DNA from: Armatimonadota bacterium
GTDB taxonomy: Bacteria; Armatimonadota; Hebobacteria; CAIYQO01
Reading direction: 5' to 3'
Length of the DNA: 60,629 bases
Assembly (NCBI GenBank): GCA_029553475.1
Contig: JAKPKV010000057.1
Span: 1-60,629 of the forward strand
Positions 8,145 through 54,253 of the stretch are shown one piece after another. Position 1 is the first letter of the stretch, and every line of letters starts with the position of its first letter. The translations under genes and the position numbers were made by a program. The notes beneath the pieces were generated by a model that saw only the letters and a program-made list of their open reading frames with translations, had not been told where the DNA came from and ran no database searches.

Positions 8145-8165
8145 AGCGGAGCGGAGTGCCGTCAC

Positions 8166-8350
8166 CATGGGGACTGTCCCCCTGAACGCCGTGACCAGAT
8201 GATCCACAGGCCGTTCACCGGGACTGTCCCCATGGTGCGTGGACGCGACCGGCGGCAGATGCGCACGCTCAAGCGATGATGCATATGGGGACAGTCCCGG
8301 TGAGGCCCCTGTGGATCAACGGGTTACGGCGTTCAGGGGGACAGTCCCCA
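8166..8350. repeat. Imperfect inverted repeat with GGGGACTGTCCCC tips
   Basis: The left arm (8166-8233) and right arm (8284-8350) are reverse complements at roughly 85-90% of positions. They are separated by about 50 bases. Each arm is itself bounded by GGGACTGTCCC palindromes. The layout is like REP/BIME or MITE elements; no transposase is nearby. Confidence 0.65.
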
Positions 8351-8552
8351 TTTCACGACGAACGGGTTCTGGTGTTACCGAGGTACAAATGCGGACGCGC
8401 CTTCCCCCTTCGCTCAAGCTACGGGGGACCAGTGCTGAGGCTGCGGCGCTACGACGAACGGGTTCTGGTGGTGCCGGGTGCAAGGGCGGCGGCGCTCCGC
8501 GTTCTGTTGTAAAGATACGGTCGGGGGATAGGGCGGCGTCTATGGGCGCGCG

Positions 8553-9678: not shown

Positions 9679-12600
9679 TTACGGGCGCGGGTCTTCCGCC
9701 AGCTCCAGGGTGATGGCGAGGAGGCAGACGGCGCCGCCGTCGGGCAGGGTGATGGACTTCAGCGGTTTGTCGGCCAGCGGCAGGCGGTAGGCGAAGGCGG
9801 CGCCGCGCAGGTACCAGTCGTCGCCGTGCGCGGTGCGGATGTAGCGGGTGCGCAGCATCACCGGCTCATCGTTCGCCGGGTCGCCCAGCCAGCCGGCCAC
9901 GGTGACGGGCACGTCGGTTTGCGTGCCGTCGGCGTAGGTGACGGTGAAGACGGCGGGCGCGGTTTCCAGCACGTTGAAGCCGACGAGGCAGAGCGCGCGG
10001 GCGGTCTGGTCGGGCAGCGGGAGGGCCTGTCCCAGCCCGCGCACCATCGTCGCGCGGCCCTCGCGGGGCGCGGGGAAGACGAAGCTCGGCCAGGCGGCAT
10101 GGGCGGCGCCCTGGTGATAGCCCGGCGCGTAGCCCAGCGGCGGCGCGGTCCGGTCGGGCAGGAATTCTTCCAGCGGGAAGACGGTCTCCAGCATATCCAG
10201 CCCGCCCAGCGACGCCACGCGCTCGGCGGCGGCGGCGATGCCGTTGGCGGCCTCAGCGAGGTCTAGCGGCAGCCAGCGCGGCGACGTCACCCGCACCGGG
10301 GCGATGGGCAGCGCGGGCGTCGCGGCGTCGGCCAGCAGCGGCACGCTCTGGCCGCGATGCCGCAGGTTGATGGCGCAGCGATAGCTGCCGGGCCGCGCGG
10401 GGGGCGTCAGGAGCATGGTCAGCTTCACCACGTCGCCCGGCTTCACCGCGTCGGGCAGCCGCGTGCTGCCGCCGGCATCCGGCAGCGGCCGGCCGTCCCA
10501 GGCGAGCCACTGATAGGTCAGTACGGTGGTGTCCGGCGTCCACGCTGCACCGCCAGTGTTGCGCAGCACTACCGGCGCCAGCGCGTCCGCGCCCGCCAGC
10601 TCCTCCGGCACCTGCATGCCGAGCAGCATGGCGGCGGCGTCGCCGGGCGTGATGGCGACCCAGGCGTCGGGGATGGCGGCGGCGCGCAGCGGCTCATCGC
10701 CGCGCAAGAGCTCGGCGCGCAGCCGCGCCCAGCCCGGCCCTTCGGGGGCGGGGGGCAGCGCGCCAGTGAAGAGCGCGGTCTGGCCCGGGGCGACGGTGGC
10801 GCGCAGCGGCAGCCGCGCGTCGCCGGGCAGCGCCTCGCCGTCGGCGGTGAGCCAGCGCAGGCGCAGCGTCACCGCGTTCTTGCGCCAGGCGTCGGCGCCC
10901 GCGTTGCGCACCGCCAGCCCGACGGGCGTGCGCTGCGCGGGGCCGAGCGCGCCGGGGATGGCGGTCTCCAGCAGTTGCGCGGCGGGGGCATCGCCCGCGA
11001 CGGTGAAGGGGATGGTGAGCGTGCCCACCCGTTCGGTGAGCAGTGGGGCGGTGAGAAAGGCGATTTTGTTGCGGCTGAAATCGAGGTGCAGCCGATAGGC
11101 GCCCGCCGCCAGCGGCCGCCGCGCCGCCACCGTGGGCAGCGTGAGGCCGATGCGCGACGTGGCGCGGTCGAAGAGCGCCAGCTTATCCGTCGCCAGGCCG
11201 GAGAGCACGGTGACGTCGTCGCGCGTCACGCGGTAATGCACGCGGAAGCCGTGCTGGCTGACCACCTTCTGCAGGCTGCCGTTTTTGATGAGCACTTCTA
11301 CCGGGTACGCCGCGCCGGCGCGCAGCACGGGGGGCAGCGTGTGGCCGAGGACGGTCAGGCCGAAATCGCGCCCCTCTGCCAGGCGCATCAGCGCCAGCCG
11401 CGTCGCGTCCAGATACTGCTGCCCATACTGGCGTGAGGCGGCGATCTCGGTGCCGCGGGCGAACTCATTCCAACTGCGGATGAGCAATAAATCCGGCTGC
11501 GCGCCGGTCACCTTCACCCAGCCGTTGGCGTAGGTGTCGCCGCCGGAGCGGGACAGGAAGCCCTGGCGCGCGCCGACGCCGGGGGCGATGAGGGCGGTGC
11601 GCAGCGGCCCGGCGCCCACCTGCACGCCGGCGGAGGGATCCCAGGCGCAGCGGGCGAGCACGCCCGGCGGCACGGCGTCGCCCGTCCAGGCGGCATCCAA
11701 CAGCCAGCCGATGGGGGCGCCCCAGGCGGCGCGCAGGCGCTCGCCGGCCGCCGCCAGCGGCAGCGCCGCCAGCGGGCCGGGATTCGGCGGGGCGACGACG
11801 ATGAGCGGATAGCAGGCGCCGCCATCCGGGGAGGGCAGCGTCAGCCGGTAGCGCGGCGGAATCGCGCGGAAGGCTTCCGTCGCCGCCGCCTCCAGCGTGG
11901 CCGCCAGCCTCGCGGGGTCGGCGGTTTCCGCGGAGAGATCGAGCACCGGCACGATGGGCGGCACGTCATAAAAGTATGCGGCGGTGGAGGCGGCGTCATA
12001 GGCGCTGAGCGCCTGCACGAGCGCCAGCAGGCGGGCGCGCGTGTCGGCGGAGGGGGCGCCGGGCAGCGCCACCGCCAGCGCGTCAATGCCGGCCTGGCGG
12101 ATGGCCTTCACCTGCGGCTGATGATAGAGCGGCATCGCCGGCGTCACCCACGGCGGCAGCGGCTCCAGGGGGTGATGCGCGGGGGATGCGCCTTCGGGAT
12201 CGAGGCTGTACCAGACGGCGGTGAGCGACACCGGCTGGCGGCCCGGCGCCGACGGGGCGACGCCGTGCCCCGGGCGCCGGCGGTAGCTGACCACGCCGGC
12301 CATCACCCATTCGGTGGCGCGCACCTCGCCGTCAATGAAGGGATCGAGCATCACCAGCGGGGCGTTGGCCAGCCGCTCGGTGGTGGGCAACGGCTGGGCG
12401 TTCTGCAGGAACTGCAGTTGCCCCCAGCGCGCGGGGTGGTTCAGGTCCTCTTCCATCACCCCCTCCGGCCAGCAGGAGACCGCGCGCGTCTCGCCCTGCG
12501 CGTAGCAGGCCACCGCGTAGCCGATGGCGGGCAGCGGGTCGCGCGCCGAGCGGCGGAAAGGCGGCACCACCCCCAGCAACTGCCAGGAGAGGGCCATCTC

Positions 12601-13026
12601 CACCACGTAGCCGGTGTCGGGCTTGGTGTTGTCGTTCAGCGTGCCGTTCACGCGCCGCGCCAGGCGGATGGTGCCGCGCTCGCCGGGCTGGAACCAGCTC
12701 GGGTCATCGCGCCAATCGCCTTTGTCGCCGCGCTGCACGGACACCCCGCCGGCGGCGCTGACGATGACGCGCACGCAGTCGCGGTCGAGGAGGTCGCCAT
12801 TAGTGGGGTCCAGGTCCAGGTAGACGGCGATGGCGTCGTCCAGCCACGGCTGGCTCATCGGTGCCGTCTGATTGCCGACAATCAGCGGGTCATCCACGCG
12901 CAGCCCGAAATAGAGCGCGGTGGTGGTCCACACCGTGTGCGCCATGATGCGGTCGAGCGGCGGCGTCTCCGCCGTGGCGGCGAGGCCGGCAAGCAAGAGG
13001 ACGATGGCAAGATAATAATGGCGCAT
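9679..13026 (-). CDS. Large secreted CBM9-like / GH99-like multidomain protein
   Basis: A 1115-aa exported protein. The signal peptide is MRHYYLAIVLLLAGLAATA. Residues about 20-190 resemble the CBM9 sugar-binding fold (WTTTALYFGLRVDD and DDAIAVYLDLDP). A middle region of about 250-600 recalls GH71/GH99-like TIM barrels (QVKAIRQAGIDALAVALPG, then RSWNEFARGTEI, like the WNEW-EGT motif of that clan). Two Ig-like segments follow (TPVGLAVRNAGADAW; APVVLRNTGGAAWTPDT). The C-terminal ~200 residues form a beta-sandwich with VTYADGTQTDVPV, common in bacterial glycosidases. It probably binds and perhaps cleaves polysaccharide outside the cell. The barrel is divergent, so enzyme activity is uncertain. 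An in-frame extension upstream of 13026 runs into repeat DNA and is rejected. Confidence 0.75.
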   Translation of the reverse strand: MRHYYLAIVLLLAGLAATAETPPLDRIMAHTVWTTTALYFGLRVDDPLIVGNQTAPMSQPWLDDAIAVYLDLDPTNGDLLDRDCVRVIVSAAGGVSVQRGDKGDWRDDPSWFQPGERGTIRLARRVNGTLNDNTKPDTGYVVEMALSWQLLGVVPPFRRSARDPLPAIGYAVACYAQGETRAVSCWPEGVMEEDLNHPARWGQLQFLQNAQPLPTTERLANAPLVMLDPFIDGEVRATEWVMAGVVSYRRRPGHGVAPSAPGRQPVSLTAVWYSLDPEGASPAHHPLEPLPPWVTPAMPLYHQPQVKAIRQAGIDALAVALPGAPSADTRARLLALVQALSAYDAASTAAYFYDVPPIVPVLDLSAETADPARLAATLEAAATEAFRAIPPRYRLTLPSPDGGACYPLIVVAPPNPGPLAALPLAAAGERLRAAWGAPIGWLLDAAWTGDAVPPGVLARCAWDPSAGVQVGAGPLRTALIAPGVGARQGFLSRSGGDTYANGWVKVTGAQPDLLLIRSWNEFARGTEIAASRQYGQQYLDATRLALMRLAEGRDFGLTVLGHTLPPVLRAGAAYPVEVLIKNGSLQKVVSQHGFRVHYRVTRDDVTVLSGLATDKLALFDRATSRIGLTLPTVAARRPLAAGAYRLHLDFSRNKIAFLTAPLLTERVGTLTIPFTVAGDAPAAQLLETAIPGALGPAQRTPVGLAVRNAGADAWRKNAVTLRLRWLTADGEALPGDARLPLRATVAPGQTALFTGALPPAPEGPGWARLRAELLRGDEPLRAAAIPDAWVAITPGDAAAMLLGMQVPEELAGADALAPVVLRNTGGAAWTPDTTVLTYQWLAWDGRPLPDAGGSTRLPDAVKPGDVVKLTMLLTPPARPGSYRCAINLRHRGQSVPLLADAATPALPIAPVRVTSPRWLPLDLAEAANGIAAAAERVASLGGLDMLETVFPLEEFLPDRTAPPLGYAPGYHQGAAHAAWPSFVFPAPREGRATMVRGLGQALPLPDQTARALCLVGFNVLETAPAVFTVTYADGTQTDVPVTVAGWLGDPANDEPVMLRTRYIRTAHGDDWYLRGAAFAYRLPLADKPLKSITLPDGGAVCLLAITLELAEDPRP

Positions 13027-13052
13027 GATGGGTCTCGGGTTTATCGAACACT

Positions 13053-13188
13053 GGGCGGGCGAGCGTCCCCGCGAGCCGACTCCGGGGGGAAGTCTCATCC
13101 GTCGTGCTCGCGAGATAGCCTGTGCTGCGAACACGACTTCCATCACTTTCATCCGGAGTCGTCCCGATTGCATCGGGATCGCCCGCCC
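13053..13188. repeat. Inverted-repeat element, copy A
   Basis: A 136-bp element bounded by GGGCGGGCGA and TCGCCCGCCC. The left arm carries GCGTCCCCGCGAGCC; the right arm carries GTCCCGATTGCATCGGGA. Its core (ACTCCGGGGGGAAGTC to GAACACGAC to CCATCA) is shared in the same orientation with 22576-22712, but there the two arms have changed places. It lies just upstream of a minus-strand gene start, as does copy B. Confidence 0.8.
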
Positions 13189-13194
13189 GTGAGA

Positions 13195-13494
13195 TTACGA
13201 CTCCGGCGTGCCGTACTCTTCCTTCGCTTCGGCTTCCTGGCCGGCTTCCGCGTCGAGCGCGCCGGCGTCGGCGTCGGCGGAGAAGGACTCGACGAGGGCG
13301 CGGGCGGTCTCGGCGTCGGCGGCCCGCACCAGCAGTTGGCTGTGCAGCCCGCGCTGCATCACGCCTTCGAGCCACTCCGGCTCGAAGGTGCGCTCCACCA
13401 CGCCGATGCCCGCTTCCTCCAGCATCGTTTGGTAGAGCAGCGCCTGGATTTCGTCGGGCGCGTCAAAGACCGGTACCAGCTCATCCGTTCCCAT
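13195..13494 (-). CDS. DUF2007-like small protein
   Basis: A 99-aa soluble protein resembling DUF2007, sometimes described as a putative prokaryotic signal-transducing domain. The visible pattern is a short alpha/beta unit: LVPVFDAPDEIQALLYQTML, a GI-VVERTF strand, then SQLLVRAADAETARALVESF, followed by an acidic Ala/Glu-rich tail. Family members typically read 'hxxhxxhxxxxEAxxhxxxLExxGI'. The start follows AGGAGG with a four-base spacer. Its cellular role is unknown. It is followed on the same strand by the repeat element and the 1115-aa secreted protein. Confidence 0.7.
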   Translation of the reverse strand: MGTDELVPVFDAPDEIQALLYQTMLEEAGIGVVERTFEPEWLEGVMQRGLHSQLLVRAADAETARALVESFSADADAGALDAEAGQEAEAKEEYGTPES

Positions 13495-13596
13495 GGCTCC
13501 TCCTTCCGGGCCGCCGGGCGTCCCTGCTACCGTTGAGTATACCCCGCCGGGCAGCGAGCGTAAAGCTCATTCCCGCGCCGTGGGCGAAATGATGTC

Positions 13597-14394
13597 TTAC
13601 GCGTCTTCACGCCCGGAGAGATCGGGGATAGACCAGCCCTCGACATCAGTCTGCCGGTGCCGGTTAGCGCGCCGCTCCTCCTGTCTTGCCTTCGCGATGC
13701 GGTGACGATCCCATGACGACAGTGGACTCTCGCTCCGCCAGCGATCTACCAGTGAAATGCAGGCCGACGGCAGAAAGGCCATGGTGATGACCGGCACCAG
13801 CGCAAAACCCACCGGAAATGTCAGCACAAAGCCCACGAGCGTCAGCAGGAGGTAGACGTAGGCGCGCACGAGCGCATCAAGCGTGCGCGCCGCCTGGCAA
13901 GATGCCAGCAATCCCACGCACCCGAACATCAGCGCTTCAATCTGGAGAGCGACGACGCTGACGAGCACTTCCCAGAGGGCGATGCCGCCAAAGGTCGCGG
14001 CCAGTATGGCGACGATGGGCAGCGTCGCGAGCTGCAGCGTCAGCAGTTGCGCCATCGCGCCGTTGAGTTTACCGAATACTATCTCGGCGGCGGTATACCG
14101 GCTGAGCAGCAGGTGATCGAGGCTGCCGCGCTCACGCTGGCCGCTGAACGTGCCCGCGGTGAGCGCCGGGGCGATGACGAGAACCAGCAGCGCCTGCACT
14201 ACCACCATGCCGAACTAGGTCATGCGGCCAAACCTGGCGAGATCGCCAATACTGCCGGCATTCAACCCAGCCAGTACCAGGATCACACCGAGCCCCAGCA
14301 GATAGCCCGTCAGCAACAGCAAGCTTGAGCGTCCGCGCAGCCGGGCGCGTAGCTCAAACCAGAGCAGCGGGTTGTGCGGCAGATACCAGGCCAT
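13597..14394 (-). pseudogene. ABC-2 type transporter permease, interrupted by an in-frame amber codon
   Basis: A membrane protein of about 265 codons with the ABC-2 permease pattern. It has an N-terminal NPLLWFELRARLRGR, a first membrane helix, and after the break LVLVIAPALTAGTFSGQRERGSLDHLLLSR and EIVFGKLNG, the family's cytoplasmic coupling segment. Further hydrophobic helices and a basic tail follow. A TAG codon at 14215-14217 (minus strand) splits it into 60 and 204 codons in the same frame, exactly before FGMVVVQALL. No frame change is needed to join the halves. The start at 14394 follows AAGGA by five bases. Either a pseudogene, a sequencing error, or amber readthrough. No ATPase gene is adjacent. 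Confidence 0.8.
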
Positions 14395-14435
14395 TGCTAT
14401 CCTTGCCGGCATCGGAATGGCATACCCACCGGGCG

Positions 14436-15884
14436 CTATTTTCGCCGCCACGTCGTGCCCGCCGGGGTATCCTCCAGCACCACGCCCAGCTCGGTGAGGC
14501 GAGCTCGGATGGTGTCGGCGAGGGCGAAATTTTTCTCCGCGCGGGCCTGGGCGCGCAGGTCGAGAAGGAGCGTCATCAGCGGCTCCACCAGCGTATCTTC
14601 CGATTTCGCCGCGATCTCCAGCGGGATGCCGAGGACGGAGGCGAAGAGGAGGAGGCGCGCGCCGGCGTCGGAGAGCGCGGTGAGCGCCTGCGCGTCGGGC
14701 ACGAAGGCGGGATCGCCGGTGAGCTTATTCGCCTCGCCGACGAGGGTGAAGAGCACGGCGATGGCGCGCGGGGTGTTGAAGTCGTCGTCCATCGCCGCGC
14801 GGAAGTCGGCCTCCGCCGCCGCCAGCCGCGCGCGCAGGGCGGCGCTGGCCTCCGGGTTCGGCGTCTCGCGCTGGCGGCCGGCGCTCACCACGCGCCGTAT
14901 GTTGAAGACGCCCAGCGTCAGCCGCTGGTAGGCGGCTTGCGCCTGGTCCAGCGCCTGGTCGGAAAAATCAATGGGCGAGCGGTAGTGGGCGGCGGTGAGG
15001 AAGTAGCGCACCACCTCGGCGGGATATTTTTCCAAAATATCCCGCACCACGAAGAAATTTCCTAACGATTTCGACATCTTCTCCGCGTTCACCGTCACGA
15101 AGCCGTTGTGCATCCAGTAGCGCGCAAAAAGGGAGGCGTCGCCATCAATGGCCGCCTCACTCTGCGCGATTTCGTTCTCGTGGTGCGGGAAGATCAGGTC
15201 CTGTCCGCCGCCGTGAATGTCAAAGCCCGCGCCCAGATATTTCAGCGACATCGCCGAGCACTCGATGTGCCAGCCCGGCCGCCCCGATCCCCACGGGCTG
15301 TCCCAGCTCGGCTCGCCGGGCTTGGCGGCTTTCCAGAGGGCAAAATCCAGCGGGTCGCGCTTGCGCTCGCTCACCTCCACGCGCGCGCCGGACGCCATCT
15401 CGTCCAGGTCGCGGTTGGAGAGCGCGCCGTAGGTGGCGAATGTGCGCACCGCGAAGTAGACGTCGCCGCCCACCACGTAGGCGACGCCGCGCTCCACCAG
15501 CGCCGATACCAGGCTGATAATTTCTTCGATATTTTCGGTGGCGCGGGGGTAGACGGTGGCGCGCTTCACGTTCAGCGAATCCATCTCCTCGAAATAGACG
15601 GCGATGAAGCGCTCCACCAGCGCGCGCCACTCCACGCCCTGCTCGGCGGAGCGCTTGATGATCTTGTCCTCGATATCGGTGAAGTTGGTGACGTAGGTCA
15701 CCGCGTACCCGCTGTACTCCAGGTAGCGGCGCACCACGTCGAAGACCACCGCCGGCCGGGCGTTGCCCAGGTGCGGGTAGTCATACGGCGTGGGGCCGCA
15801 GACGTACATCGCCACCTTCCCCGGCTCGCGGGTGATGAGCGGCTCCGTCTGGCGCGACAGCGTGTTGTAGAGATGGATGGTCAT
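14436..15884 (-). CDS. cysS: Cysteinyl-tRNA synthetase
   Basis: A 482-aa class I synthetase that charges tRNA-Cys. The HIGH-equivalent HLGN is at 38-41 and KMSKS at 268-272. The zinc ligands Cys29, Cys208, a His of the HHENE motif (233/234) and Glu237 are all present. The C-terminal DALR-type helical domain carries FRAAMDDDFNTPRAIAVLF. The length matches the family. The longer in-frame extension upstream to 16226 overlaps the sulfatase gene and is rejected. The ATG at 15884 lies only about 10 bases from an extended -10 box, and no Shine-Dalgarno sequence is seen. The mRNA is probably leaderless or nearly so. It is followed on the same strand by the broken ABC permease. Confidence 0.97.
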   Translation of the reverse strand: MTIHLYNTLSRQTEPLITREPGKVAMYVCGPTPYDYPHLGNARPAVVFDVVRRYLEYSGYAVTYVTNFTDIEDKIIKRSAEQGVEWRALVERFIAVYFEEMDSLNVKRATVYPRATENIEEIISLVSALVERGVAYVVGGDVYFAVRTFATYGALSNRDLDEMASGARVEVSERKRDPLDFALWKAAKPGEPSWDSPWGSGRPGWHIECSAMSLKYLGAGFDIHGGGQDLIFPHHENEIAQSEAAIDGDASLFARYWMHNGFVTVNAEKMSKSLGNFFVVRDILEKYPAEVVRYFLTAAHYRSPIDFSDQALDQAQAAYQRLTLGVFNIRRVVSAGRQRETPNPEASAALRARLAAAEADFRAAMDDDFNTPRAIAVLFTLVGEANKLTGDPAFVPDAQALTALSDAGARLLLFASVLGIPLEIAAKSEDTLVEPLMTLLLDLRAQARAEKNFALADTIRARLTELGVVLEDTPAGTTWRRK

Positions 15885-15893
15885 GATGCTGGT

Positions 15894-15902
15894 ATTATAG
15901 CA
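15894..15902 (-). promoter_or_regulatory. Extended -10 promoter of cysS
   Basis: On the minus strand TGC-TATAAT is a perfect extended -10 element. Its 3' end is nine bases from the ATG, placing the likely transcription start within about three bases of the start codon. No clear -35 box is seen, which is usual for extended -10 promoters. Confidence 0.6.
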
Positions 15903-15979
15903 GATTCGGCGATTGGCGCGAGAAGCGAGATCAGCAATGGTCTGAACGAGACAATCGCTGCTGTTGATATGCATCGCGC

Positions 15980-17386
15980 TTAAAAAATATCCGTCCGCGG
16001 CGGGCAGGGTTCGTTTTCGAGGATGAAGGCCAGCAGGCGGTCCTGCATCTCCGCGGCCACGTCCGGGCGCTCCGCCCAGCGGTTGTCGAATTCGTCGGGA
16101 TCGTCCCGGCGGTCGTAGAGCTCGCCGTACAGGCGGTCGTGGTAGTGGACGTATTTCCAGTCCTCGGTGACGAGGCAGCGGGCGACGGTGAAGGGGTCGT
16201 CGGACTGGAAGCGTTTTTCGCGCCATTCCACCAGCGCGGCGTCGCGGGTCGGTTGGGGTTCCAGCGTCTCCGAGAAGAGCGGTTGCCCCTGCGCCAGGTG
16301 CGGGCCGGGGACGCCGGTGAGGGCGGCGACGGTGGGGGCGAGGTCCACGTGCGAGACGAAGCCCCCCTGCACGCCGGTGACGCCGCAGCGGGCGGGGAAG
16401 CGGTAGATGAGCGGCACGCGCACCGCGCCCTCGTAAAAGAGCGGGCCTTTCCAGAGCAGCCCGTGGTCGCCGAGCATCTCGCCGTGGTCGCTGGTGAAGA
16501 TGACGACGGTATTGTCGGCCAACCCGGTCTCCTCCAGCGCGGCCAGCAGGCGGCCCACCATGGCGTCCACGTGGGCGATGGTGGCGTGGTAGGCGGCGAT
16601 GGTGGCGCGGATGCCGCGCGGGCCGGGGTCCTGGCAGTAGGCGTGGATGGCGTCGTACATGCCGCGCGCCGGCGGCGTCATCCGCGCTTCCTCGCCCTCC
16701 CGGTAGCGGGGCATCGGCATCTCCTCCGGCGTGAATAGGGAGGCGTACGGCTCCACCGGATCAAAGGGGTGGTGCGGATCGAAAAAGCCGGCGGAGAGGA
16801 AGAAGGGCCGGCCGTCGGCGGCGCGCTGCTGAACATATTCCTCGCACAGCCCGGCGATCCAGTTGTTCATGTGTTTCGCTTCGGGCAGGTCGCGCACGTA
16901 GCCGTTGCGGTGCCCCTCGCGCTTGAACTGTTTCAGGTAGGGCTCGTACAGCCCCTGCGCGTCCAGCCAGTGAAAATACTCATCCTTGCAGTAGGGGTCG
17001 CCCTCGCACTCGTGGAGAACCTGGAAGTCATATTCCGGGTGCGGCTCGCCGCGCAGCCACACGTTGTCCAGGTGGATCTTGCCGATGAGGCCGGTGTGGT
17101 ACCCCCCGCGCCCCAGCGCCCCCTGCAGCGTCTCGGCCCGGCGGCTGAGCGGCACGCCGTTCATCCACACGCCGTGATGGCTGGGGTACTGCCCGGTGAC
17201 GTACGACGCCCGCGCCGGCATGCACACCGGGTTGGTGGTGTAGCAGTGGGTGAAGCGCACCCCGTCCGCCGCCAGCCGGTCCAGGTGCGGCGTTTTCGCC
17301 ACCGGACTGCCGTAACACCCCAGCGTATCGTGGCGCTGCTGATCGGTATTGATGAAGAGGATATTCGGACGGGTGAGCGCGGGCAT
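15980..17386 (-). CDS. Sulfatase (alkaline-phosphatase superfamily)
   Basis: A 468-aa arylsulfatase-type hydrolase acting on sulfate esters. The N-terminal metal site is NILFINTDQQRHDTLGCYG. The formylglycine signature is C55-M-P-A-R59 followed by SYVTG, so Cys55 would be converted to formylglycine. GKIHLDN and SDHGEMLGDHGLLWKG complete the active site. Choline-sulfatase and phosphonate-hydrolase-like members have similar length. No signal peptide is visible, so it appears cytoplasmic, unlike many polysaccharide sulfatases. The ATG at 17386 follows GGAG by six bases; a TTG upstream would include that site. The exported FGE-fold protein at 2940-4658 is unlikely to be its activator. Confidence 0.9.
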   Translation of the reverse strand: MPALTRPNILFINTDQQRHDTLGCYGSPVAKTPHLDRLAADGVRFTHCYTTNPVCMPARASYVTGQYPSHHGVWMNGVPLSRRAETLQGALGRGGYHTGLIGKIHLDNVWLRGEPHPEYDFQVLHECEGDPYCKDEYFHWLDAQGLYEPYLKQFKREGHRNGYVRDLPEAKHMNNWIAGLCEEYVQQRAADGRPFFLSAGFFDPHHPFDPVEPYASLFTPEEMPMPRYREGEEARMTPPARGMYDAIHAYCQDPGPRGIRATIAAYHATIAHVDAMVGRLLAALEETGLADNTVVIFTSDHGEMLGDHGLLWKGPLFYEGAVRVPLIYRFPARCGVTGVQGGFVSHVDLAPTVAALTGVPGPHLAQGQPLFSETLEPQPTRDAALVEWREKRFQSDDPFTVARCLVTEDWKYVHYHDRLYGELYDRRDDPDEFDNRWAERPDVAAEMQDRLLAFILENEPCPPRTDIF

Positions 17387-17468
17387 GCTAGGCTCCAATT
17401 TTTACCGCAGAGTACGCAGAGAGCACAGCGTTATAACTTTTTCCTTCGGAGAGGTGAGTCCTTCCTGC

Positions 17469-17921
17469 TCACGCGCGCACCATCCCCACCGCGTCTTCCG
17501 GCGTCGCCTGTTCGGCCAATACGGCGGTGATGGCGGGAAAATACATGCGCATGGTGGCCAGGTTGGCGTAGACCAACCCCTTCAGCAGGCCGGGGAGCAG
17601 CGGCTCGTGCTGGGTGTCAACGTAGGTTTTATAGCGGATCTCGCCGTCCTGGAAATCCATCTCAAAATTGCCGTTCGCCAGCCCGTAGTTGGCGCGGGTG
17701 AGCAGCTCGGCCAGCGCCGGCCGCCGCTCTTCCGGGGCGTTCCGCGGGTAGATCGAGTAAAAGAGCACCTGCGCCATCTCCTCGCGCACGTGCACGAGGC
17801 AGGTCCACTCCCCCTTCTCGCTGGCGAACTCCATCCGGTAAATCGGCCGCCCCTCAATCGGCGTGAGCTGCCAGTTCAGCTCCATGAAGAAGGCGAGGAC
17901 GATATCAGTCATCTGGGCCAT
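17469..17921 (-). CDS. YbjN-domain protein (T3SS chaperone-like fold)
   Basis: A 150-aa soluble protein of the YbjN family, described as putative sensory-transduction regulators with a type III secretion chaperone-like fold. Typical segments are YRMEFASEKGEWTCLVHVRE, VLFYSIYPRNAPEERRPALAELLTRANYGLANGNFEMD and EIRYKTYVD. AGGAG lies six bases before the ATG at 17921. A very long reading frame continues upstream on this strand to 20933, but that is the antisense of the antiporter gene and should not be used as an N-terminal extension. The gene precedes the sulfatase on the same strand with an 82-base gap, so the two may be co-transcribed. Function unknown. Confidence 0.8.
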   Translation of the reverse strand: MAQMTDIVLAFFMELNWQLTPIEGRPIYRMEFASEKGEWTCLVHVREEMAQVLFYSIYPRNAPEERRPALAELLTRANYGLANGNFEMDFQDGEIRYKTYVDTQHEPLLPGLLKGLVYANLATMRMYFPAITAVLAEQATPEDAVGMVRA

Positions 17922-18587
17922 GGGATGCTCCTGGTGTCGGGTTTCAAGTGTCGGGTTTCGGATTGCATGGGGGGTATATTCGTGAGGGGGAGGGGAAAGC
18001 CTTCCTGGCGCGCCGCCCCCTGCCGAAACTCGCGGCATGCGCGGTGTCGCCGCCCGCTTATTGACAGTATCCGGCGGAGTCAGGCATACTTCTCTGTGGA
18101 CATGCGCGATGGGCATCACCTGATCATGCCGGGATTCCTCTCTTTGTGCGCATTGCTGGCCCTGACCACGCGTGCCGGTGATGCGGCGGTCACGCGCGAC
18201 GTCCGCCCAGCGCTCCGCGTGAGCGCCACGCGGGGGCATGGCGCGCTCACCGGAGACACACTGCGGGCGCGGCACCTGCCCGCCCGCGCGCAGTGCCTCG
18301 CCCCCCAGCACACCAAGCCGGAGCAGGGCACAGACGCCTGCGCGGCGCCCGCGGTCACGCGCATCCCGTTCACCGGCGCGATGTCCGCCTGCCGAACCCG
18401 GCACGGCCATGCGGGCCGCCCGGTCGCGCGCGCGTACGCGGAATTCCCCCGCCCCCCCACCGTCACGCCACCCGCCTGACCGCGGCGCTGCTGATGACTG
18501 GCCGGCAGTCCCCGACCGGCCGGCAGCCCCCGACCGCAGCCCGCCCGCCTTCACCCGTTCCGGGACGCGCGCCCAGGATACCGTGAC
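17922..18587. other. Divergent intergenic region, no firm gene
   Basis: This 666-base spacer lies between the YbjN gene and the antiporter. It holds a tandem GTGTCGGGTTTC repeat (17934-17945 and 17948-17959), a likely plus-strand promoter (18061-18090), and one weak ORF. The weak ORF (18126-18479, 117 aa) begins MPGFLSLCALLALTTRAGDA, which looks like a signal peptide. It has no ribosome site and its remainder looks like translated spacer, so it is not called. The ~490 bases between promoter and antiporter start are otherwise unexplained. Confidence 0.5.
18061..18090 (+). promoter_or_regulatory. Putative sigma70-type promoter
   Basis: A perfect -35 hexamer TTGACA (18061-18066) and CATACT (18085-18090) are separated by 18 bases. 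It points toward the antiporter gene, with a leader of about 490 bases. Confidence 0.5.
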
Positions 18588-20984
18588 GTGATAACTTTCT
18601 CCAACATTTATAATGAGCTGATCGCGCTGCTGATCATCACGCTGGTGGTCAGCGCGATCGCGGTGCGTCTCCGGCAGCCGCTGATCATCGCCTTCATCGC
18701 GGTGGGCATCCTCGTCGGGCCGGTGGGACTGAACTGCATCCGCGCCACCGAGCAGATTCATCTCTTTGCCGAGATGGGCCTGGCCTTGCTGCTCTTCGTG
18801 GTGGGCCTGAAACTCGACCCGCAGTTGATCCGCAGCATGGGCATGGTGTCGCTGGCGACCGCGCTGGGGCAAATGGCCTTCACCGCGGTGCTCGGGTTCA
18901 TCCTGACGCTGCTGTTCGGCCTGCCGGCGATGACGGCGCTCTACATCGCCGTGGCCATCGTCTTTTCCAGCACGATTCTCATCGTCAAGCTCCTGTCCGA
19001 CAAGCGCGAGACCGACGCGCTGCACGGCCAGATCGCGCTCGGGTTTCTGATTGTCGAAGATATCGTGGTGGTGCTGGCGATGATCGGGTTGAGCGCCTTC
19101 ACCGGCGTCGCCACGCTCAATCCCGCCCTGCAGGTGCTGCTCATCGTCGCGAAAGGCGTCGGCCTTTTCCTCGGCATCTGGGCCGTGAGCACGTATCTCT
19201 TCCCGCGACTCATGCCGGTGGTGGCGCGCTCCACCGAGCTGCTGGTGGTCTTCGGCATCACCTGGGCGCTGGCGCTGGCGGCCGCGGCGGACCTGCTGGG
19301 CTTCAATAAAGAAGTGGGGGCGTTCGCCGCCGGGCTGTCGCTGGCCTCCACGCTCTATCGCGACCAGCTCAGCGCGAAGCTGGTCAGCTTGCGGGATTTC
19401 CTGCTCCTCTTTTTCTTCATCGAATTGGGCAGTCATCTCGATTTGGGCAATATCGGCGGGCAATTGCTCATCGCGGTCCCGGTGTCGCTGCTGGTGCTCT
19501 TGGGCAAGCCCTTCGCCATCATGGGCATCCTGGGTCTGATGGGGTACCGCAAGCGCACCGGCTTCATGGCCGGCCTCACCGTGGCGCAGATCAGCGAATT
19601 TTCGCTCATTCTGGTCGCCATGGGCGTCACCGCCGGCCACGTGGGCGGCAATGCCCGGGACCTGATCACCCTGGTGCTGCTCATCACCATGGGCATTTCG
19701 ACGCACCTGATCATGCACGCGCAGGCCCTCTATGAGCGCGTGGCGCCCTACCTGTCCTTTTTCGAGCGCCGGACGGCGCACCGGGAAGACCCGGACCAGG
19801 ACGTGCCGGAGCTGGATCCGAACAGCGTCATCCTCATCGGGCTGGGCGAGTACGGCGGCAATATCGGCCGCCACCTCCGCGCGCGCGGCCGCATGGTGCT
19901 GGGCGTAGACTTTAATCCGCGGACGGTGACGGCCTGGATGGCGGACGGCCAGCAGGCGGTGTTCGGCGACGCCGAAGATCCCGACCTCGCGCACGCGCTC
20001 CCGCTCGCGCGCGCGCGCTGGGTCGTCAGCTCCATCCGCGACCCCCTGATCAACAAGGCGATCATCCAGACGCTGCGCCATGCCGGCTATCGCGGCCACA
20101 TCGCCTGCGCGGTACAGGAGCGCCAGGATGCCGCCGTGTTCGCGCAGGAGGCCGACCTCGTCTTCGTGCCCTTTGAAGACGCCGCGATTCAGGCGGTTGA
20201 TTTGTTGATTGAGCAGGAGAGTATTCTCGAAAGGAACAGAATGGATACCCAGATCGCCGCGATGACCGGGCACTATCTGGTGTGCGGTTATGGCCGCATG
20301 GGCCAGCAGATCGCCAAGGACTTCATGCGCCAGCAGGTACCGTTTGTGGTGGTGGAAGACAACCCCGAACAACTGCCCCGGCTTCGCGACCAGCGGATTC
20401 CGCACACGGTGGGCAACGCGAGCGAAGATACCGTGCTGCTGGAGGCCGGCGTCACCCGCGCCCGGGGGCTGATCGCCGTGGCCTCGACGGACGAGGCGAA
20501 CGTCTTCATCGTGCTGACCGCGCGCGTCCTCAATCCGGAGCTCTACATCGTCGCCCGCTCGATCCGCGAAGAGAACGAGGATAAACTGCGGCGCGCCGGC
20601 GCGGACCGCGTCATGTCGCCGTATATTCTGGGCGGCCATCGCATGGCCACCGCGGTGACCCGGCCGGGCATCCTGGAATTTCTCGACCTGCTGATGCACA
20701 GCGACCAGCTCCCCATCGAGATCGGCATGGTCACCGTCAGCCCCGGTTCGCCGTTTGCGCAGCGCACCATCGAGGAGGTCGGCTTCGGCCAGGTCTACCA
20801 CGTCACGCTGTTGGCGGTGCGCCGCCCTGGCGACGCGCTGCTCGCCAACCCCCGCGCCGACTTGTGCATCCAGGCCGATGACGAGCTCATCATCATCGGC
20901 ACGCAGGCGCAGCTCGACGCGATCCAGACGCACACCGCGGCCGGCGAGGCGGATGCCGCGGCGCGCACGCCGACCGACGCGTGA
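18588..20984 (+). CDS. CPA2 monovalent cation:proton antiporter with two RCK domains
   Basis: A 798-aa inner-membrane protein related to KefB/KefC. Residues 1-385 form the antiporter domain with about 12 helices, including the family motif GFLIVEDIVVV (151-161). The first RCK/TrkA-N domain is at about 413-540 (VILIGLGEYGGNIGRHL, then VDFNP). A second, more TrkA/Kch-like RCK domain is at about 561-695 (YLVCGYGRMGQQIAKDF, then VVEDNPEQ). An RCK-C domain at about 712-785 (DELIIIGTQAQL) ends the chain. KefC proteins normally have one RCK domain and about 600 residues, so the tandem arrangement is unusual. GTG 18588 follows AGGA by nine bases. It probably exchanges K+ or Na+ for H+ under nucleotide control. 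Confidence 0.9.
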   Translation: MITFSNIYNELIALLIITLVVSAIAVRLRQPLIIAFIAVGILVGPVGLNCIRATEQIHLFAEMGLALLLFVVGLKLDPQLIRSMGMVSLATALGQMAFTAVLGFILTLLFGLPAMTALYIAVAIVFSSTILIVKLLSDKRETDALHGQIALGFLIVEDIVVVLAMIGLSAFTGVATLNPALQVLLIVAKGVGLFLGIWAVSTYLFPRLMPVVARSTELLVVFGITWALALAAAADLLGFNKEVGAFAAGLSLASTLYRDQLSAKLVSLRDFLLLFFFIELGSHLDLGNIGGQLLIAVPVSLLVLLGKPFAIMGILGLMGYRKRTGFMAGLTVAQISEFSLILVAMGVTAGHVGGNARDLITLVLLITMGISTHLIMHAQALYERVAPYLSFFERRTAHREDPDQDVPELDPNSVILIGLGEYGGNIGRHLRARGRMVLGVDFNPRTVTAWMADGQQAVFGDAEDPDLAHALPLARARWVVSSIRDPLINKAIIQTLRHAGYRGHIACAVQERQDAAVFAQEADLVFVPFEDAAIQAVDLLIEQESILERNRMDTQIAAMTGHYLVCGYGRMGQQIAKDFMRQQVPFVVVEDNPEQLPRLRDQRIPHTVGNASEDTVLLEAGVTRARGLIAVASTDEANVFIVLTARVLNPELYIVARSIREENEDKLRRAGADRVMSPYILGGHRMATAVTRPGILEFLDLLMHSDQLPIEIGMVTVSPGSPFAQRTIEEVGFGQVYHVTLLAVRRPGDALLANPRADLCIQADDELIIIGTQAQLDAIQTHTAAGEADAAARTPTDA

Positions 20985-21020
20985 GGGCGGCCCGCCAACC
21001 GCGTGGGCGCATACGCCCGC

Positions 21021-22556
21021 TCATTCCCCCGCCACTTCCGCCAGGCCGCGCGGGATGGCGGCGATCAGGTCCGGCGCGGTGAAGCCGCGGAGGCCGTGCT
21101 GGGCGGTCATGCGCCGGGCGGCGAGGCCGCCGATGAAGCAGGCGAGGGCGGCGGCGTGGGCCGCCTCGACGCGCTGGGCGATGAGGGCGGTGATCATGCC
21201 GGCGAGGACGTCGCCGGTGCCGGCCACCGCCAGCGCCGGGGTGCCGGTGGGGTTCACGTACGTGCGGCCGTCCGGGGCGGCGATGACGACGGGCGCGCCC
21301 TTGTAGACCACGGTGGCGTTGAAGCGGCGCGCGGCCTCCTTGGCGGCGGCGAGGCGGTCCTCCTCCAGCACGGTGGCGGGCTGGCCGAGCAGGCGGCTCA
21401 TCTCGCCGGGGTGCGGGGTGATGACGGTGGGGCTCTCGCGCTGGCGCCACAGGCGGTCGTGCCCGGCCATGGCGGTGAGGGCGTCGGCATCCACCACCAG
21501 CGGCACGGGGATGCGCGGCACCAGCCGGCGGATGAGGTGGGCGGTGGCGGGATGGCGCGACAGGCCGGGGCCGAGGAGCGCCGCGCGCGTGCCGGCGGCG
21601 TCCTCCAGCAGGCGCGCGAACCCGTGGAAACTCAGCGTGCCGGCGCGCGTCTCCGGCATCGGGCGGAAGACGACCTCGGTGAGCTGGGCATTCAGCGCCG
21701 CCGTCAGCGAGGCGGGCAGCGCCAGCTTCACGAACCCGGCGCCGGCGCGGTAGGCGGCGGCCGCGGCCATCGCCGCCGCGCCCGTCATGCCGAAGGAGCC
21801 GGCGATAATCAGCGCCGCGCCCACGTCCATCTTATGCGCCGCCGGGCGGCGCGCGGGCACCCACGCCGCGGCCTGCTCCCATTCGGTCATCTCGGCGACC
21901 GCCGGCCACCCCGCCACCGCCTCCGGCGGGAAGCCGATGTCGGCGACGGTCCACGCGCCGGCGAATTCGGCGGCGGGATGCAGCAGCAGGCACGGTTTCG
22001 GCAGCCCCATCGTCACCGTCGCCTCGGCGCGCATCGCCGCCCCCGGCGCCTGGCCGGTGTTCGTCTCCACGCCGGAGGGCACGTCCACCGCCAGCACGCC
22101 GCGCCCGGCGCGCAGGGCGTTCACGCGCTCGATCAGCGCCGCCAGCTCGCCGCGCACCGCGCCGCTCACCCCGGTGCCGAGCAGCGCGTCGGCGATCACC
22201 CCCGCCTCGCGCAGGTCGGCGTCCGTCACCGCGGAGAGGATGGGGACCCCCGCCGCCGCCGCGCGGTCGTAGTTGACGCGGGCATCGGGGGCGAGGTCGG
22301 CCGGCGCGCAGGGCAGCACCGCCGCCACCGCCGCGCCGCCCGCGTGCAGCCGCCGTGCCGCCACCAGCCCGTCGCCGCCGTTATTCCCCTTGCCGCAGAG
22401 CACCAGCGCCATGCCGGGGTACTGCTCCAGCAGCCGCGCCACCTCGCTCGCCACCGCCTCCCCCGCGCGCTCCATCAGCGCCAGAGCGGGGATGCCCAGC
22501 TCCTCGATGGCATAGCGGTCCAGCGCCCGCATCTGCTCCGCCGTGACGAGTTTCAT
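21021..22556 (-). CDS. nnr: Bifunctional NAD(P)H-hydrate epimerase / ADP-dependent NAD(P)H-hydrate dehydratase
   Basis: A 511-aa metabolite-repair enzyme that restores hydrated NADH and NADPH. The N-terminal YjeF_N epimerase domain (about 1-215) has LCGKGNNGGDGLVAARRL, DALLGTGVSGAVRG and LAVDVPSGVETNTG. The C-terminal carbohydrate-kinase-like dehydratase domain (about 230-511) has ALIIAGSFGMTGAAAMAA, VVDADALTAM, ITPHPGEMSRLLG and VAGTGDVLAGMI. The two-domain fusion is the common bacterial form. The start MKLVTAEQM is preceded by GAGG with an eight-base spacer. Copy B of the arm-swapped repeat element lies directly upstream, between this gene and tldD. Confidence 0.95.
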   Translation of the reverse strand: MKLVTAEQMRALDRYAIEELGIPALALMERAGEAVASEVARLLEQYPGMALVLCGKGNNGGDGLVAARRLHAGGAAVAAVLPCAPADLAPDARVNYDRAAAAGVPILSAVTDADLREAGVIADALLGTGVSGAVRGELAALIERVNALRAGRGVLAVDVPSGVETNTGQAPGAAMRAEATVTMGLPKPCLLLHPAAEFAGAWTVADIGFPPEAVAGWPAVAEMTEWEQAAAWVPARRPAAHKMDVGAALIIAGSFGMTGAAAMAAAAAYRAGAGFVKLALPASLTAALNAQLTEVVFRPMPETRAGTLSFHGFARLLEDAAGTRAALLGPGLSRHPATAHLIRRLVPRIPVPLVVDADALTAMAGHDRLWRQRESPTVITPHPGEMSRLLGQPATVLEEDRLAAAKEAARRFNATVVYKGAPVVIAAPDGRTYVNPTGTPALAVAGTGDVLAGMITALIAQRVEAAHAAALACFIGGLAARRMTAQHGLRGFTAPDLIAAIPRGLAEVAGE

Positions 22557-22575
22557 CTGTCCGTCCTCACGTTCC

Positions 22576-22712
22576 GGGCGGGCGATCCCGATGGCATCGG
22601 GACGACTCCGGGGGGAAGTCGTATCCGTCGTCTGCACGAGAGAGCCTCTCTACCGAACACGACATACCATCATCTCCCCCCGGCGTCGGCTCGCGGGGAC
22701 GCTCGCCCGCCC
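22576..22712. repeat. Inverted-repeat element, copy B (arms exchanged)
   Basis: A 137-bp element with the same core orientation as 13053-13188. Here the arm with GATCCCGATGGCATCGGGACG is on the left and the arm with GGCTCGCGGGGACGCTC is on the right. The tips are again GGGCGGGC and GCCCGCCC. It sits 19 bases upstream of the nnr start codon. Confidence 0.8.
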
Positions 22713-22738
22713 ATTGTCGTTGTGCACCTCCGGGTGTC

Positions 22739-24175
22739 TTACTTGATCCCGACCTTCACCGCGCGGAAGCGGGCGCGGGAGGCGCCGTGGCCGACGTGCA
22801 TCACCTGCATGGGGTCGCCCTTGCCGCAGTTGAGCACGCCCCACATGCGCCATTCCTTGCGGTTGGTCACCGCGTCGCAGCCGTTCCAGAAGTGCGGGGT
22901 GATGCCCTGGTAGCTGGGGTTGCGCACCATGCGGGTGAGGGCGCCGTCCTCGATGAGCCAGCCCACCTCGGTGGAGAACTGGAAATTCAGGCGCAGGTCG
23001 TCAATGCTCCAGCTCTTCGTGTTGTCGAGCAGGATGCCGCGCCGCGTATCGGCGATGAGCTCGTCCAGCGTCCAGTCTCCGGGCTCCAGGTTGATATTCG
23101 TCATGCGGATGAGGGGCGGGCGCGCCCAGCCGTCGGCGCGCATCGCCCCCTGGCTGTGCCCGCCGAGTTTCGGCGCCGTCTCGCGCGAGGTGAGGTAGCC
23201 GATGAACACCCCCTCCTGCACGATGGGGGTGCGCTGGGCATGCACGCCCTCGTCGTCATAGAGGAAGGTGCCCAGCCCGCCGGGCACGGTGGCGTCGGCG
23301 ACGATGTTCACGTGTGCCGACCCGTACTGGAAGCCGAGCGTGTCCGGCTGGAGGAAACTCCCGCCCGCCAGGCTCAGCTCGGTGCCGAAGACGCGGTCCA
23401 GCTCGATGGGATGGCCGCAGCTCTCGTGCACCTGCAGCGCGAGCTGGCTGCCGTCCAGGATGACGTCCAGCTCGCCGGAGGGGCACTCCGGGGCGTCCAA
23501 GAGCTCGGCGGCTTCCCGGCCGATGCGGCGCGCGCCGGCGTCAAGGTCCAGGTATTCGACCACTTCCCACCCCGCCTGCCCGTGGTAGCCTTCCAGCGCG
23601 CTGGGGTAGGAGCGCGTCTGCACCTCGCCGCCGCCCACCGCGGTGGCCTGCAGCAGCCCGCCGCACTCGGTGGTGGTCTGGTGGATATCCGACCCCTCGC
23701 TGCTGGCGAAGAATTTCTCCGTGCGAAAACTGTTGAGCTGCCCCTCGGCCACGCGCACCGCTTTCGTCGCGCGCATCAGGCCGTCCAGCTCCATCAGCAG
23801 GCTGATTTTGTCTTCCAGCGGCACGGCGAAGGGATCGCGCTTGCAGGTGCTGCTCCACTCCGCCGCCACCGGCGGCGCGTCGCTCAGCGTGATCGGCTCG
23901 CCCCCGGCGCGGGCGCTGGCGCGGGCGATGCGCACCGCCTCGCGCGCCGCCTCCGCCACGCCCCCGGCGCCGAGGTCGGCGGTGGCGGCGAACCCCCAGG
24001 CGCCGTCGGCGATGACGCGCACCCCGATGCCCAGCTCGTCGCCGCGCGTCACCCCCTCCACGCCGCCGTTCTTCACCTGCACCGCCTCGTGATCGCGCCG
24101 CACCACCCGCGCGTCGGCGTAGCTCGCCCCGGCATTCAGCGCCGCCTCCACCGCGGCGCGCGCAATCTCTCGCAT
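22739..24175 (-). CDS. tldD: TldD-family metalloprotease
   Basis: A 478-aa zinc protease of the TldD/PmbA (U62) family. TldD with its partner TldE/PmbA degrades small or unfolded peptides and matures RiPPs such as microcin B17. The zinc motif H-E-S-C-G-H lies at 250-255 (HExxxH), with ALQV before and PIELDRVFGTELS after. The C-terminal beta-rich domain ends with ...CGKGDPMQVMHVGHGASRARFR. Only TldD has the HExxxH motif, so this is the catalytic partner; no PmbA gene is adjacent in the window. The start follows GGAGG with an eight-base spacer. No precursor peptide gene was seen nearby. Confidence 0.93.
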   Translation of the reverse strand: MREIARAAVEAALNAGASYADARVVRRDHEAVQVKNGGVEGVTRGDELGIGVRVIADGAWGFAATADLGAGGVAEAAREAVRIARASARAGGEPITLSDAPPVAAEWSSTCKRDPFAVPLEDKISLLMELDGLMRATKAVRVAEGQLNSFRTEKFFASSEGSDIHQTTTECGGLLQATAVGGGEVQTRSYPSALEGYHGQAGWEVVEYLDLDAGARRIGREAAELLDAPECPSGELDVILDGSQLALQVHESCGHPIELDRVFGTELSLAGGSFLQPDTLGFQYGSAHVNIVADATVPGGLGTFLYDDEGVHAQRTPIVQEGVFIGYLTSRETAPKLGGHSQGAMRADGWARPPLIRMTNINLEPGDWTLDELIADTRRGILLDNTKSWSIDDLRLNFQFSTEVGWLIEDGALTRMVRNPSYQGITPHFWNGCDAVTNRKEWRMWGVLNCGKGDPMQVMHVGHGASRARFRAVKVGIK

Positions 24176-24630: not shown

Positions 24631-24775
24631 GACTGTGCAAATTCGCGAGCGGGGCGGGAGATTCCTGTTAAGGCGTGAGGGTGAGTTTGTGGTTGAACAC
24701 GAAGATACGAAGAAAGGACGACGCGAAGGTTGGTGGGAAAGGGTGCCCACATTTTCATTCTGGTTGCGGGTATGG

Positions 24776-24861
24776 CAGCGAGTCTGGACGCCGACGCGAG
24801 TCGCGTCCAGGGTCTCCTGCTTCTCCCAGTGCGCGACTCGCGTCGGCGTCCAGACTCGCTG
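24776..24861. repeat. Perfect 30-bp inverted repeat
   Basis: The arms at 24776-24805 and 24832-24861 are exact reverse complements over 30 bases (left arm starts CAGCGAGTCTGGACGCC). The loop is 26 bases. The arm contains its own smaller palindrome, GACGCGAGTCGCGTC. It lies downstream of the methyltransferase gene and could end its transcript. The surrounding spacer (24631-24921) holds no gene. Confidence 0.75.
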
Positions 24862-24921
24862 CTGTTGATACTACCGAATCTGACACTCGCCTTCTCGTTA
24901 TTCGCATTACCGGGAGAGGGA

Positions 24922-30573: not shown

Positions 30574-30881
30574 CTGACGGGTTCACCTCTCCCCCGGCCC
30601 GTCGTACTCGTACTCGGATACGTGCGGACAAGATGTCCGCGCTCCGACTCCTACTCGTACGCGAAACGATTATGCTGAAGCCGAGCGCTGTGTACCGCGC
30701 GTCGGGCAGTCTGGGACGTGGCGATCCGACATGATGTGAAAAAACGAAGCCCGTATTCGATTATGACTACGACTACGAGTACGAGTCGTGCCCATCGGAG
30801 CGCGGACATCCTGTCCGCACGTATCCGAGTACGAGTACGAGCACGAGTACGACGGGCCGGGGGGAGAGGTGCACCCGTCAG
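30574..30881. repeat. Inverted-repeat element built on ACGAGT-type units
   Basis: The left arm 30574-30645 and right arm 30797-30881 are near-exact reverse complements. The inner 43 bases (30603-30645 against 30797-30839) differ at one position. The outer part differs by a short insertion of ACGAGC/ACGAGT units in the right arm. The arms also contain GCGGACA-AGA-TGTCCGC hairpins. The ~150-bp centre has further TACGACTACGAGTACGAG units. No ORF. It has a MITE-like layout, and the whole spacer 30448-30886 holds no gene. Confidence 0.75.
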
Positions 30882-35239: not shown

Positions 35240-35265
35240 TGCCCGCCGGCCACGGATGGCGCATC

Positions 35266-35726
35266 AGCGGACCCCGCGGGCAGCACCCGGTCGCCCCCCA
35301 TCCCCCTGTCCCGCAGGGACCGAAGCCGTTAGCCACGGGTGGAGCGATAGCGGAACCCGTGGGACCCGGTCCCGCAAACATCCACAGCCCCGCAGGGGCG
35401 ACAGCGTCCCGTCCCATCGCTACCGCGGAGCATCCGGAATCCTCCTCCTGCAACGTCACCGTCCGCTGCGGCTCGGCCTGCCGCTCGCGCTACCGCTTCA
35501 CCGCGTCCCATCTGCTCACGCTGCTCGAGGAGGCGCGGGGGCCATCTCCGGTCGGGGCGGCGAATGAATCGGCCATGATCTCCTCCTGCTGCCGCCCCTG
35601 CGGGGCTATGATGTTTTGCGGGGTCGGGGTCCACGGGTTCCGCTGGCGCTCCACCCGTGGCTAACGGCTTCGGTCCCTGCGGGACAGGGGGGTGGGATGC
35701 GACCGGTGCTGCCCGCGGGGTCCGCT
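35266..35726. repeat. Large inverted-repeat element
   Basis: The left arm (35266-35401) and the reverse complement of the right arm (35593-35726) match at roughly 90% over ~135 bases. They surround a ~190-bp centre. Conserved parts include CCCGCAGGGACCGAAGCCGT, TAGCCACGGGTGGAGCG and AGCCCCGCAGGGGCG. Such repeats yield spurious ORFs on both strands. There is no transposase gene, and no gene is called in 35240-35929. The layout is MITE-like. Confidence 0.8.
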
Positions 35727-35817
35727 GGCGCGCCGCCCGCGTGGGCGCCGTCCGATTCCCGTGGGGCGCCCCCGGTCAAGATGGCGAAGCGAGGTGCAAC
35801 GTGACGGCCCACTACAG

Positions 35818-54047: not shown

Positions 54048-54067
54048 AGGCACTCCGCTGTAAACAG

Positions 54068-54163
54068 GGTCACCGTCTGGAACAGGGCGAAAGCCCGGCC
54101 GCGTATCGGTAAAGGCTGGGTAGAGAGCCGAGCCGGGCTCCCGCCCTGTTCCAGACGGTGACC
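54068..54163. repeat. Long hairpin after the prepilin gene
   Basis: A perfect 22-bp inverted repeat, GGTCACCGTCTGGAACAGGG onward (54068-54089 with 54142-54163). An inner GCCCGGC/GCCGGGC pairing (54093-54099 with 54132-54138) extends it. It could serve as a terminator or be a small repeat element. The GTCACCGTCTG core recurs partly just downstream. Confidence 0.65.
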
Positions 54164-54253
54164 ATCACTATCCCGGTGTGCAGACCGTGACCCCGCGCAG
54201 AACAGCCCCTCTTCACCCTTCCACCAACTCCTCCCTCGCCACGCGCGCCGCCG

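Follow-up and report, generated by a model that had tools for sequence, protein, structure and literature searches.

Exchanged hairpin arms in a REP-like family of intergenic repeats from an Armatimonadota genome

The DNA analysed here (the window, 60,629 nucleotides at full length) is contig C157 of G000, a 5.27-Mb genome of an Armatimonadota bacterium. It was compared with G001, a sister species and, among 60 relatives, the one genome of the same genus; both are MAGs in many contigs, in which repeats may be mis-assembled. Two related elements, A (13053-13188) and B (22576-22712), are found in the window among minus-strand genes. Element A is flanked by a gene whose product has a weak CBM9-like domain near the N-terminus (9679-13026; start codon 26 nt from A) and by a DUF2007 gene (13195-13494; stop codon 6 nt from A). 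Element B is flanked by the gene for an NAD(P)H-hydrate repair enzyme (YjeF_N and Carb_kinase; 21021-22556; start codon 19 nt from B) and by a TldD/PmbA peptidase gene (22739-24175; stop codon 26 nt from B). A preliminary description of this DNA placed both elements directly upstream of a minus-strand gene start, and the distances to the start codons at 13026 and 22556 bear this out. It did not mention that both also begin shortly past a stop codon, which belongs to the preceding minus-strand gene (at 13195 and 22739). With a stop codon 6 to 26 nt away on one side and a start codon 19 to 26 nt away on the other, each element thus nearly fills the gap between two co-directional genes.

A and B possess identical tips (GGGCGGGC/GCCCGCCC) and are built from two types of arm hairpin, S (GAGCGTCCCCGCGAGC) and D (GATCCCGATGNCATCGGGA), around a core of 85 to 86 bp (CGACTCCGG...CCGGAGTCG). 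Element A reads S-core-D. Its left S arm (13053-13076, plus strand) consists of the tip GGGCGGGC and the hairpin GGC-GA-GCG-TCCC-CGC-GA-GCC, and is followed by a forward core (13077-13161, plus strand) and by a right D arm on the minus strand (13162-13188; hairpin TCCCGATTGCATCGGGA plus tip). Element B reads D-core-S, with a D arm on the left (22576-22602, plus strand), a forward core (22603-22688, plus strand) and an S arm on the right (22689-22712, minus strand). The arm hairpins have therefore swapped sides and the cores are co-oriented. With the core profile, A scored 79.6 in the forward and 32.9 in the reverse direction, and B 77.5 and 29.0, respectively; as direct repeats, the inner cores are 79% identical over 66 nt. 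Conversely, the S arms of A and B form an inverted pair of 43 nt with 95% identity (13048-13090 and 22675-22717). The shared tips, the common core orientation and the placement of an S-type arm on the left of A and, reverse-complemented, on the right of B were all correctly recognised in the preliminary description. Within the window there are exactly two occurrences of the S-arm pattern and two of the D-arm pattern, where shuffled sequences would be expected to yield 0.04 and 0.00 occurrences, respectively. Further long inverted repeats lie at 8163-8351, 24775-24862, 30591-30863, 35253-35739 and 54050-54181, and may represent other palindromic families.

A search of the genome with A as the query recovered B (E=6e-22). 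In total, 75 matches were obtained with A and 79 with B, many of them being the two-strand matches of a single palindrome. Approximately 1.2 Mb of the 5.27 Mb was read directly, the remainder being covered through searches, and cores were counted in the window plus 60 fetched regions (1.2 Mb) picked around all S- and D-arm matches. The core profile identified 61 places in this set, about 50 of them strong; listing elements by their tip pairs alone proved too noisy. A and B belong to a family of about 50 copies of a 134-bp intergenic hairpin repeat. When arm order was scored across the family, as the preliminary description had proposed, S-core-S emerged as the standard form (approximately 34 copies) and both hybrid orders were found, with seven S-core-D copies of the A type and two D-core-S copies (B and C186:44830), boundary offsets having been adjusted by eye and the rare classes being small. 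The remainder comprised one S'-core-S' copy (arm GAGACTCCGTCGAGC) together with a small number of copies that are truncated or flanked by D. Both arm types also exist free of the core, as solo S arms, as half-elements with other interiors and, at C93 and C186, as perfect 37-bp D palindromes.

Among 60 relatives, full-length copies of the family were present only in G001, and two other genomes gave weak short matches of 29 to 36 nt. The only named records containing the element were contigs of Armatimonadetes MAG UR.bin144, no match was found in viral contigs, and an Rfam scan of the window returned nothing at gathering thresholds. Several further arrangements were observed in G000. Two stretches, at C57:128556 and C119:204673, are nearly identical to each other over some 170 bp or more, and each combines a solo S arm with a partial D arm (GGGCGGGCGATCCCGATGCAT). 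Tandem arrays at C46:67822-68014 and C95:19346-19570 consist of S-core-S (or a shortened S-S), ATTTTC and a second core that has no left arm of its own. Additionally, a recurring flank, CACAGCCGCGACGATGCTCC, directly adjoins the tips, on one side or the other, in several S and D elements (C3, C4, C131, C156, C160, C162 and C186), which suggests yet another associated repeat unit.

The S hairpin follows the pattern GGC-GA-NNN-TCNN-NNN-GA-GCC. Its variable stem is fully paired in 116 of 119 S arms, with compensatory pairs such as GCG/CGC, GTG/CAC and GAC/GTC, and the tandem GA/GA mismatch is present on both sides in 111 of the 119. S-core-S copies are predicted to fold into one hairpin of almost full length. 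For A, B and another S-D copy the predicted fold is a cloverleaf comprising a tip stem, two arm hairpins and a core stem; C186:44830 adopts the cloverleaf only with DNA parameters. On the basis of folding, the 119 S arms and some 50 copies, the elements possess the inverted pair of imperfect-palindrome hairpins around a spacer that characterises REP dimers and REPINs.

A comparison of G000 with G001 was feasible at seven orthologous sites, too few for statistics. At the site of A, G001 retains the right-hand D arm (31 nt, 97% identical), whereas an unrelated palindrome, CGGTGACAG...CACCGAATTACTGAG, occupies the place of the missing S arm and core. This palindrome is probably itself a REP-type repeat, since its ends are shared with repeats that flank Y1 transposase genes in both genomes. 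At the C120 site, S-core-S in G000 corresponds to S'-core-S' in G001 with the same core orientation, one flank being syntenic. A solo S arm (C46) and a D-like remnant (C4, about 79.9 kb) in G000 each correspond to S-core-S in G001; S-core-S copies in G000 correspond to a D-like remnant (C35) and to a different G+C-rich hairpin (C94). The C13 site (about 77.1 kb) holds no element in G000 and S-core-S in G001. For the site of B, the G001 contig stops 215 bp short and searches with the flanks gave no match. The content of these slots turns over, and D remnants often lie at exactly the same edge. It is possible, if rather unlikely, that certain intergenic slots of this genus act as docking sites at which hairpin cassettes of unrelated families replace one another and leave one arm behind, so that species would exchange the palindromes of a slot through arm-by-arm recombination and not ordinary insertion and decay. 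A second palindrome family, CGGTGACAG...CACCGNNTTACTGAG, was noted at L164 (G001 C351), L174 and L187; it is the family that occupies the slot of A in the sister species, and it resembles the repeats around two Y1 genes (L161 and L156).

To place the copies relative to genes, we used gene calls made with a simple script. Of 50 placed copies, 48 lay between called ORFs; B is one of the two overlapping copies, as a consequence of a start codon misplaced too far upstream in these crude calls. Co-directional gaps held 29 copies, convergent gaps 13 and divergent gaps six. Proximity to 3' ends was slightly enriched and divergent promoter regions were under-used (6/50; P=0.05). Relative to flanking co-directional genes, the core was in the same orientation in 14 cases and opposite in 16 (P=0.86). 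The suggestion in the preliminary description that core orientation could matter for expression is therefore unlikely to hold.

These placements raise the question of whether the repeats are selected RNA or terminator elements between genes (attenuators, 3'-end stabilisers or RNase III sites) with mobility a secondary trait. Nearly all copies are intergenic and most lie close after stop codons, their predicted folds are very stable, and orthologous slots often carry some palindrome even where the family differs. However, the core is oriented at random with respect to transcription, no T-run terminator layout was seen, no Rfam match was obtained and the element is not conserved outside the genus. 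We regard such a role as improbable.

With respect to mobility, no target-site duplication of any length tested was detected over 54 copies in a shuffle test, as is expected of REPs and REPINs; a short dyad extension was present in 8 of 54 flanks. Immediately beyond the tip, 101 of 108 ends have a pyrimidine, and the following position also seldom carries G; this pattern suggests a preference in targeting or cleavage. We also considered that the family might be a MITE, that is, terminal inverted repeats of a DDE transposon moved by an IS transposase of the classical type, gene conversion having diversified the arms. The S-S copies indeed possess long near-perfect terminal inverted repeats and a length of about 134 bp, private changes are present on both sides, and the C13 slot is filled in G001 and empty in G000. 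Like MITEs, the repeats are short and non-coding and differ in presence between species. Conversely, the fixed-length duplication left by a DDE transposase is lacking, the compensatory changes within the arm hairpins would be unneeded by a DDE end, the arms are themselves hairpins and exchangeable, and no longer element with GGGCGGGCGAGCG ends was noticed. A DDE origin thus seems a poor prospect.

The preliminary description had proposed a search for a RAYT. G000 does contain ten Y1_Tnp genes and G001 a further five, most of which are assigned to IS200/IS605 by NCBIfam, with some nearer to the REP-associated transposase but below its cut-off. Several Y1 genes have their own inverted palindromic repeats on both sides, which belong to other families. 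No pair of S or D arms, however, flanked a Y1 gene at any of the 15 loci in G000 and G001 or at eight loci in relatives, and the S/D family is therefore an orphan here. One Y1 ORF (C12, L153) contains an S-like hairpin at its 3' end; the hairpin was not counted as a RAYT link, being single, imperfect and inside the ORF. Mobilisation would presumably have relied on a Y1 single-strand transposase of the IS200/RAYT type acting on the hairpins. Inverted palindromic repeats within 600 bp were observed at Y1 genes L155, L157, L159, L160, L161 and L163 in G000 and L150, L152, L154, L156 and L158 in G001, and in several cases the flanking family has at least eight places within the 1.2 Mb that was read. 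The Y1 loci with flanking repeats of their own represent several candidate REPtrons or TIRtrons in a single Armatimonadota genus.

The layout of the S/D elements is best read as that of a REP dimer (BIME or REPIN), with two inverted, tip-anchored hairpin arms and an oriented spacer. In common with REPINs and BIMEs of Pseudomonas fluorescens and Escherichia coli, they consist of inverted hairpin units around a spacer, are intergenic, number in the tens of copies or more, form mosaics and singlets, and leave no target duplication. The alternative long-hairpin and cloverleaf folds are also shared, both having been proposed for REPINs (PMC3116915). Furthermore, hybrid dimers with arms of different families and conserved or structured spacers are known among GTAG- and CGTC-tagged REPs, where hybrids account for about 10% of dimers in S. 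maltophilia, and CGTC-tagged families also occur without a dedicated transposase (PMC3733652). The S arm carries a conserved tandem GA/GA mismatch; a conserved mismatch bulge is also needed in E. coli REP hairpins (PMC8266576). In contrast to these systems, the S/D arms begin with GGGCGGGC and bear neither an established CGTC tag nor a 5' GTAG (or GGAG) tetranucleotide at the foot of the hairpin, the family is found in Armatimonadota with no linked RAYT gene, and its conserved, oriented 86-bp core exceeds many REP spacers in length and conservation, which counts against the assignment. The elements behave like a REP dimer; strict membership of the RAYT-REP class is not established, since two features that define it, a cognate flanking Y1 gene and the GTAG tag, are lacking.

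How the arms came to be exchanged is indicated by the composition of the family. The preliminary description had stated that its reading would be refuted if the arms turned out to be two independent element families, and this largely applies: the arms act as independent modules, as S-core-S predominates, hybrid classes exist, and S and D both occur free of the core. Within one core subfamily (91-95% core identity), S-S (C162), S-D (C156) and D-D-like (C164) arms are all represented. In a core tree, no fewer than nine switches between S-only and D-bearing copies were required, although the tree is poorly resolved and has too few columns for arm history. The left and right S arms of a single copy were identical in 28 of 39 cases versus 15 expected on shuffling (P<5e-5), an excess that either shared descent or palindrome correction would explain.

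Candidate precursors of both hybrids are present in G000. The copy at C4:51705-51871 reads D-CGACTCC-[S-core-S] and contains the core nearest to that of B (91% identical). It differs substantially from B only in a block of 31 bp with the direct repeat CGACTCCGGG at its borders, and removal of this block gives D-core-S. Its mirror image, at C119:115944-116118, reads S-core-S-TTCCCCCGGAGTCG-D, and a deletion between its CCGGMGTCG repeats would yield S-core-D. Recombination between copies, one of two routes put forward in the preliminary description, gains support from the modular arms and from these precursors, each one short deletion away. Most likely, an S-core-S copy inserted next to a D-type half-element or underwent recombination with one, after which one S arm would have been lost between short direct repeats (left, CGACTCCGGG; right, TTCCCCCCGGMGTCG), forming S-core-D (A) and D-core-S (B) as hybrid dimers. 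The juxtaposition of D with S-core-S is seen directly; we infer the deletion step and its direction from static structures.

The other route, a phase-variable switch in which the arms stay fixed and the core between them is inverted by a recombinase or by cruciform resolution so that A and B interconvert, is very improbable: A and B do differ exactly as an inversion would leave them, and the inverted repeats at the core ends (CGACTCCGG/CCGGAGTCG) could recombine, but D arms next to an intact S-core-S on either side offer a simpler route, the predominant S-S copies and the solo and D-plus-other structures would all go unexplained, orientation is not coupled to the adjacent promoter or gene, with seven S-D and two D-S copies the numbers are too small for a test of symmetry, the core points the same way in both members of the single shared ortholog pair (C120/G001), and no linked site-specific recombinase was seen in a search that covered Y1 genes, so that the enzyme would be an unseen one.

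Thus, the swapped arms most likely come from the exchange of modules between repeats and not from a flipping genetic switch, and regulatory switching is not needed to explain them. Taken as a whole, it is likely that A and B belong to an orphan family of the REP/BIME/REPIN type, that its hybrids formed by juxtaposition or recombination followed by loss of an S arm, and that Y1 activity would have driven its spread.

What was suspected to be an invertible switch becomes a clear case of modular evolution among REP-like repeats, of which our literature search turned up no such description for Armatimonadota. The structures at C4 and C119 supply candidate intermediates for the formation of hybrid dimers; the REP literature examined poses the question of how such dimers form but does not follow it up. 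With several Y1 genes that have a repeat family of their own and at least one orphan family, this genus is well suited to studying how a transposase is acquired or lost by REP families.
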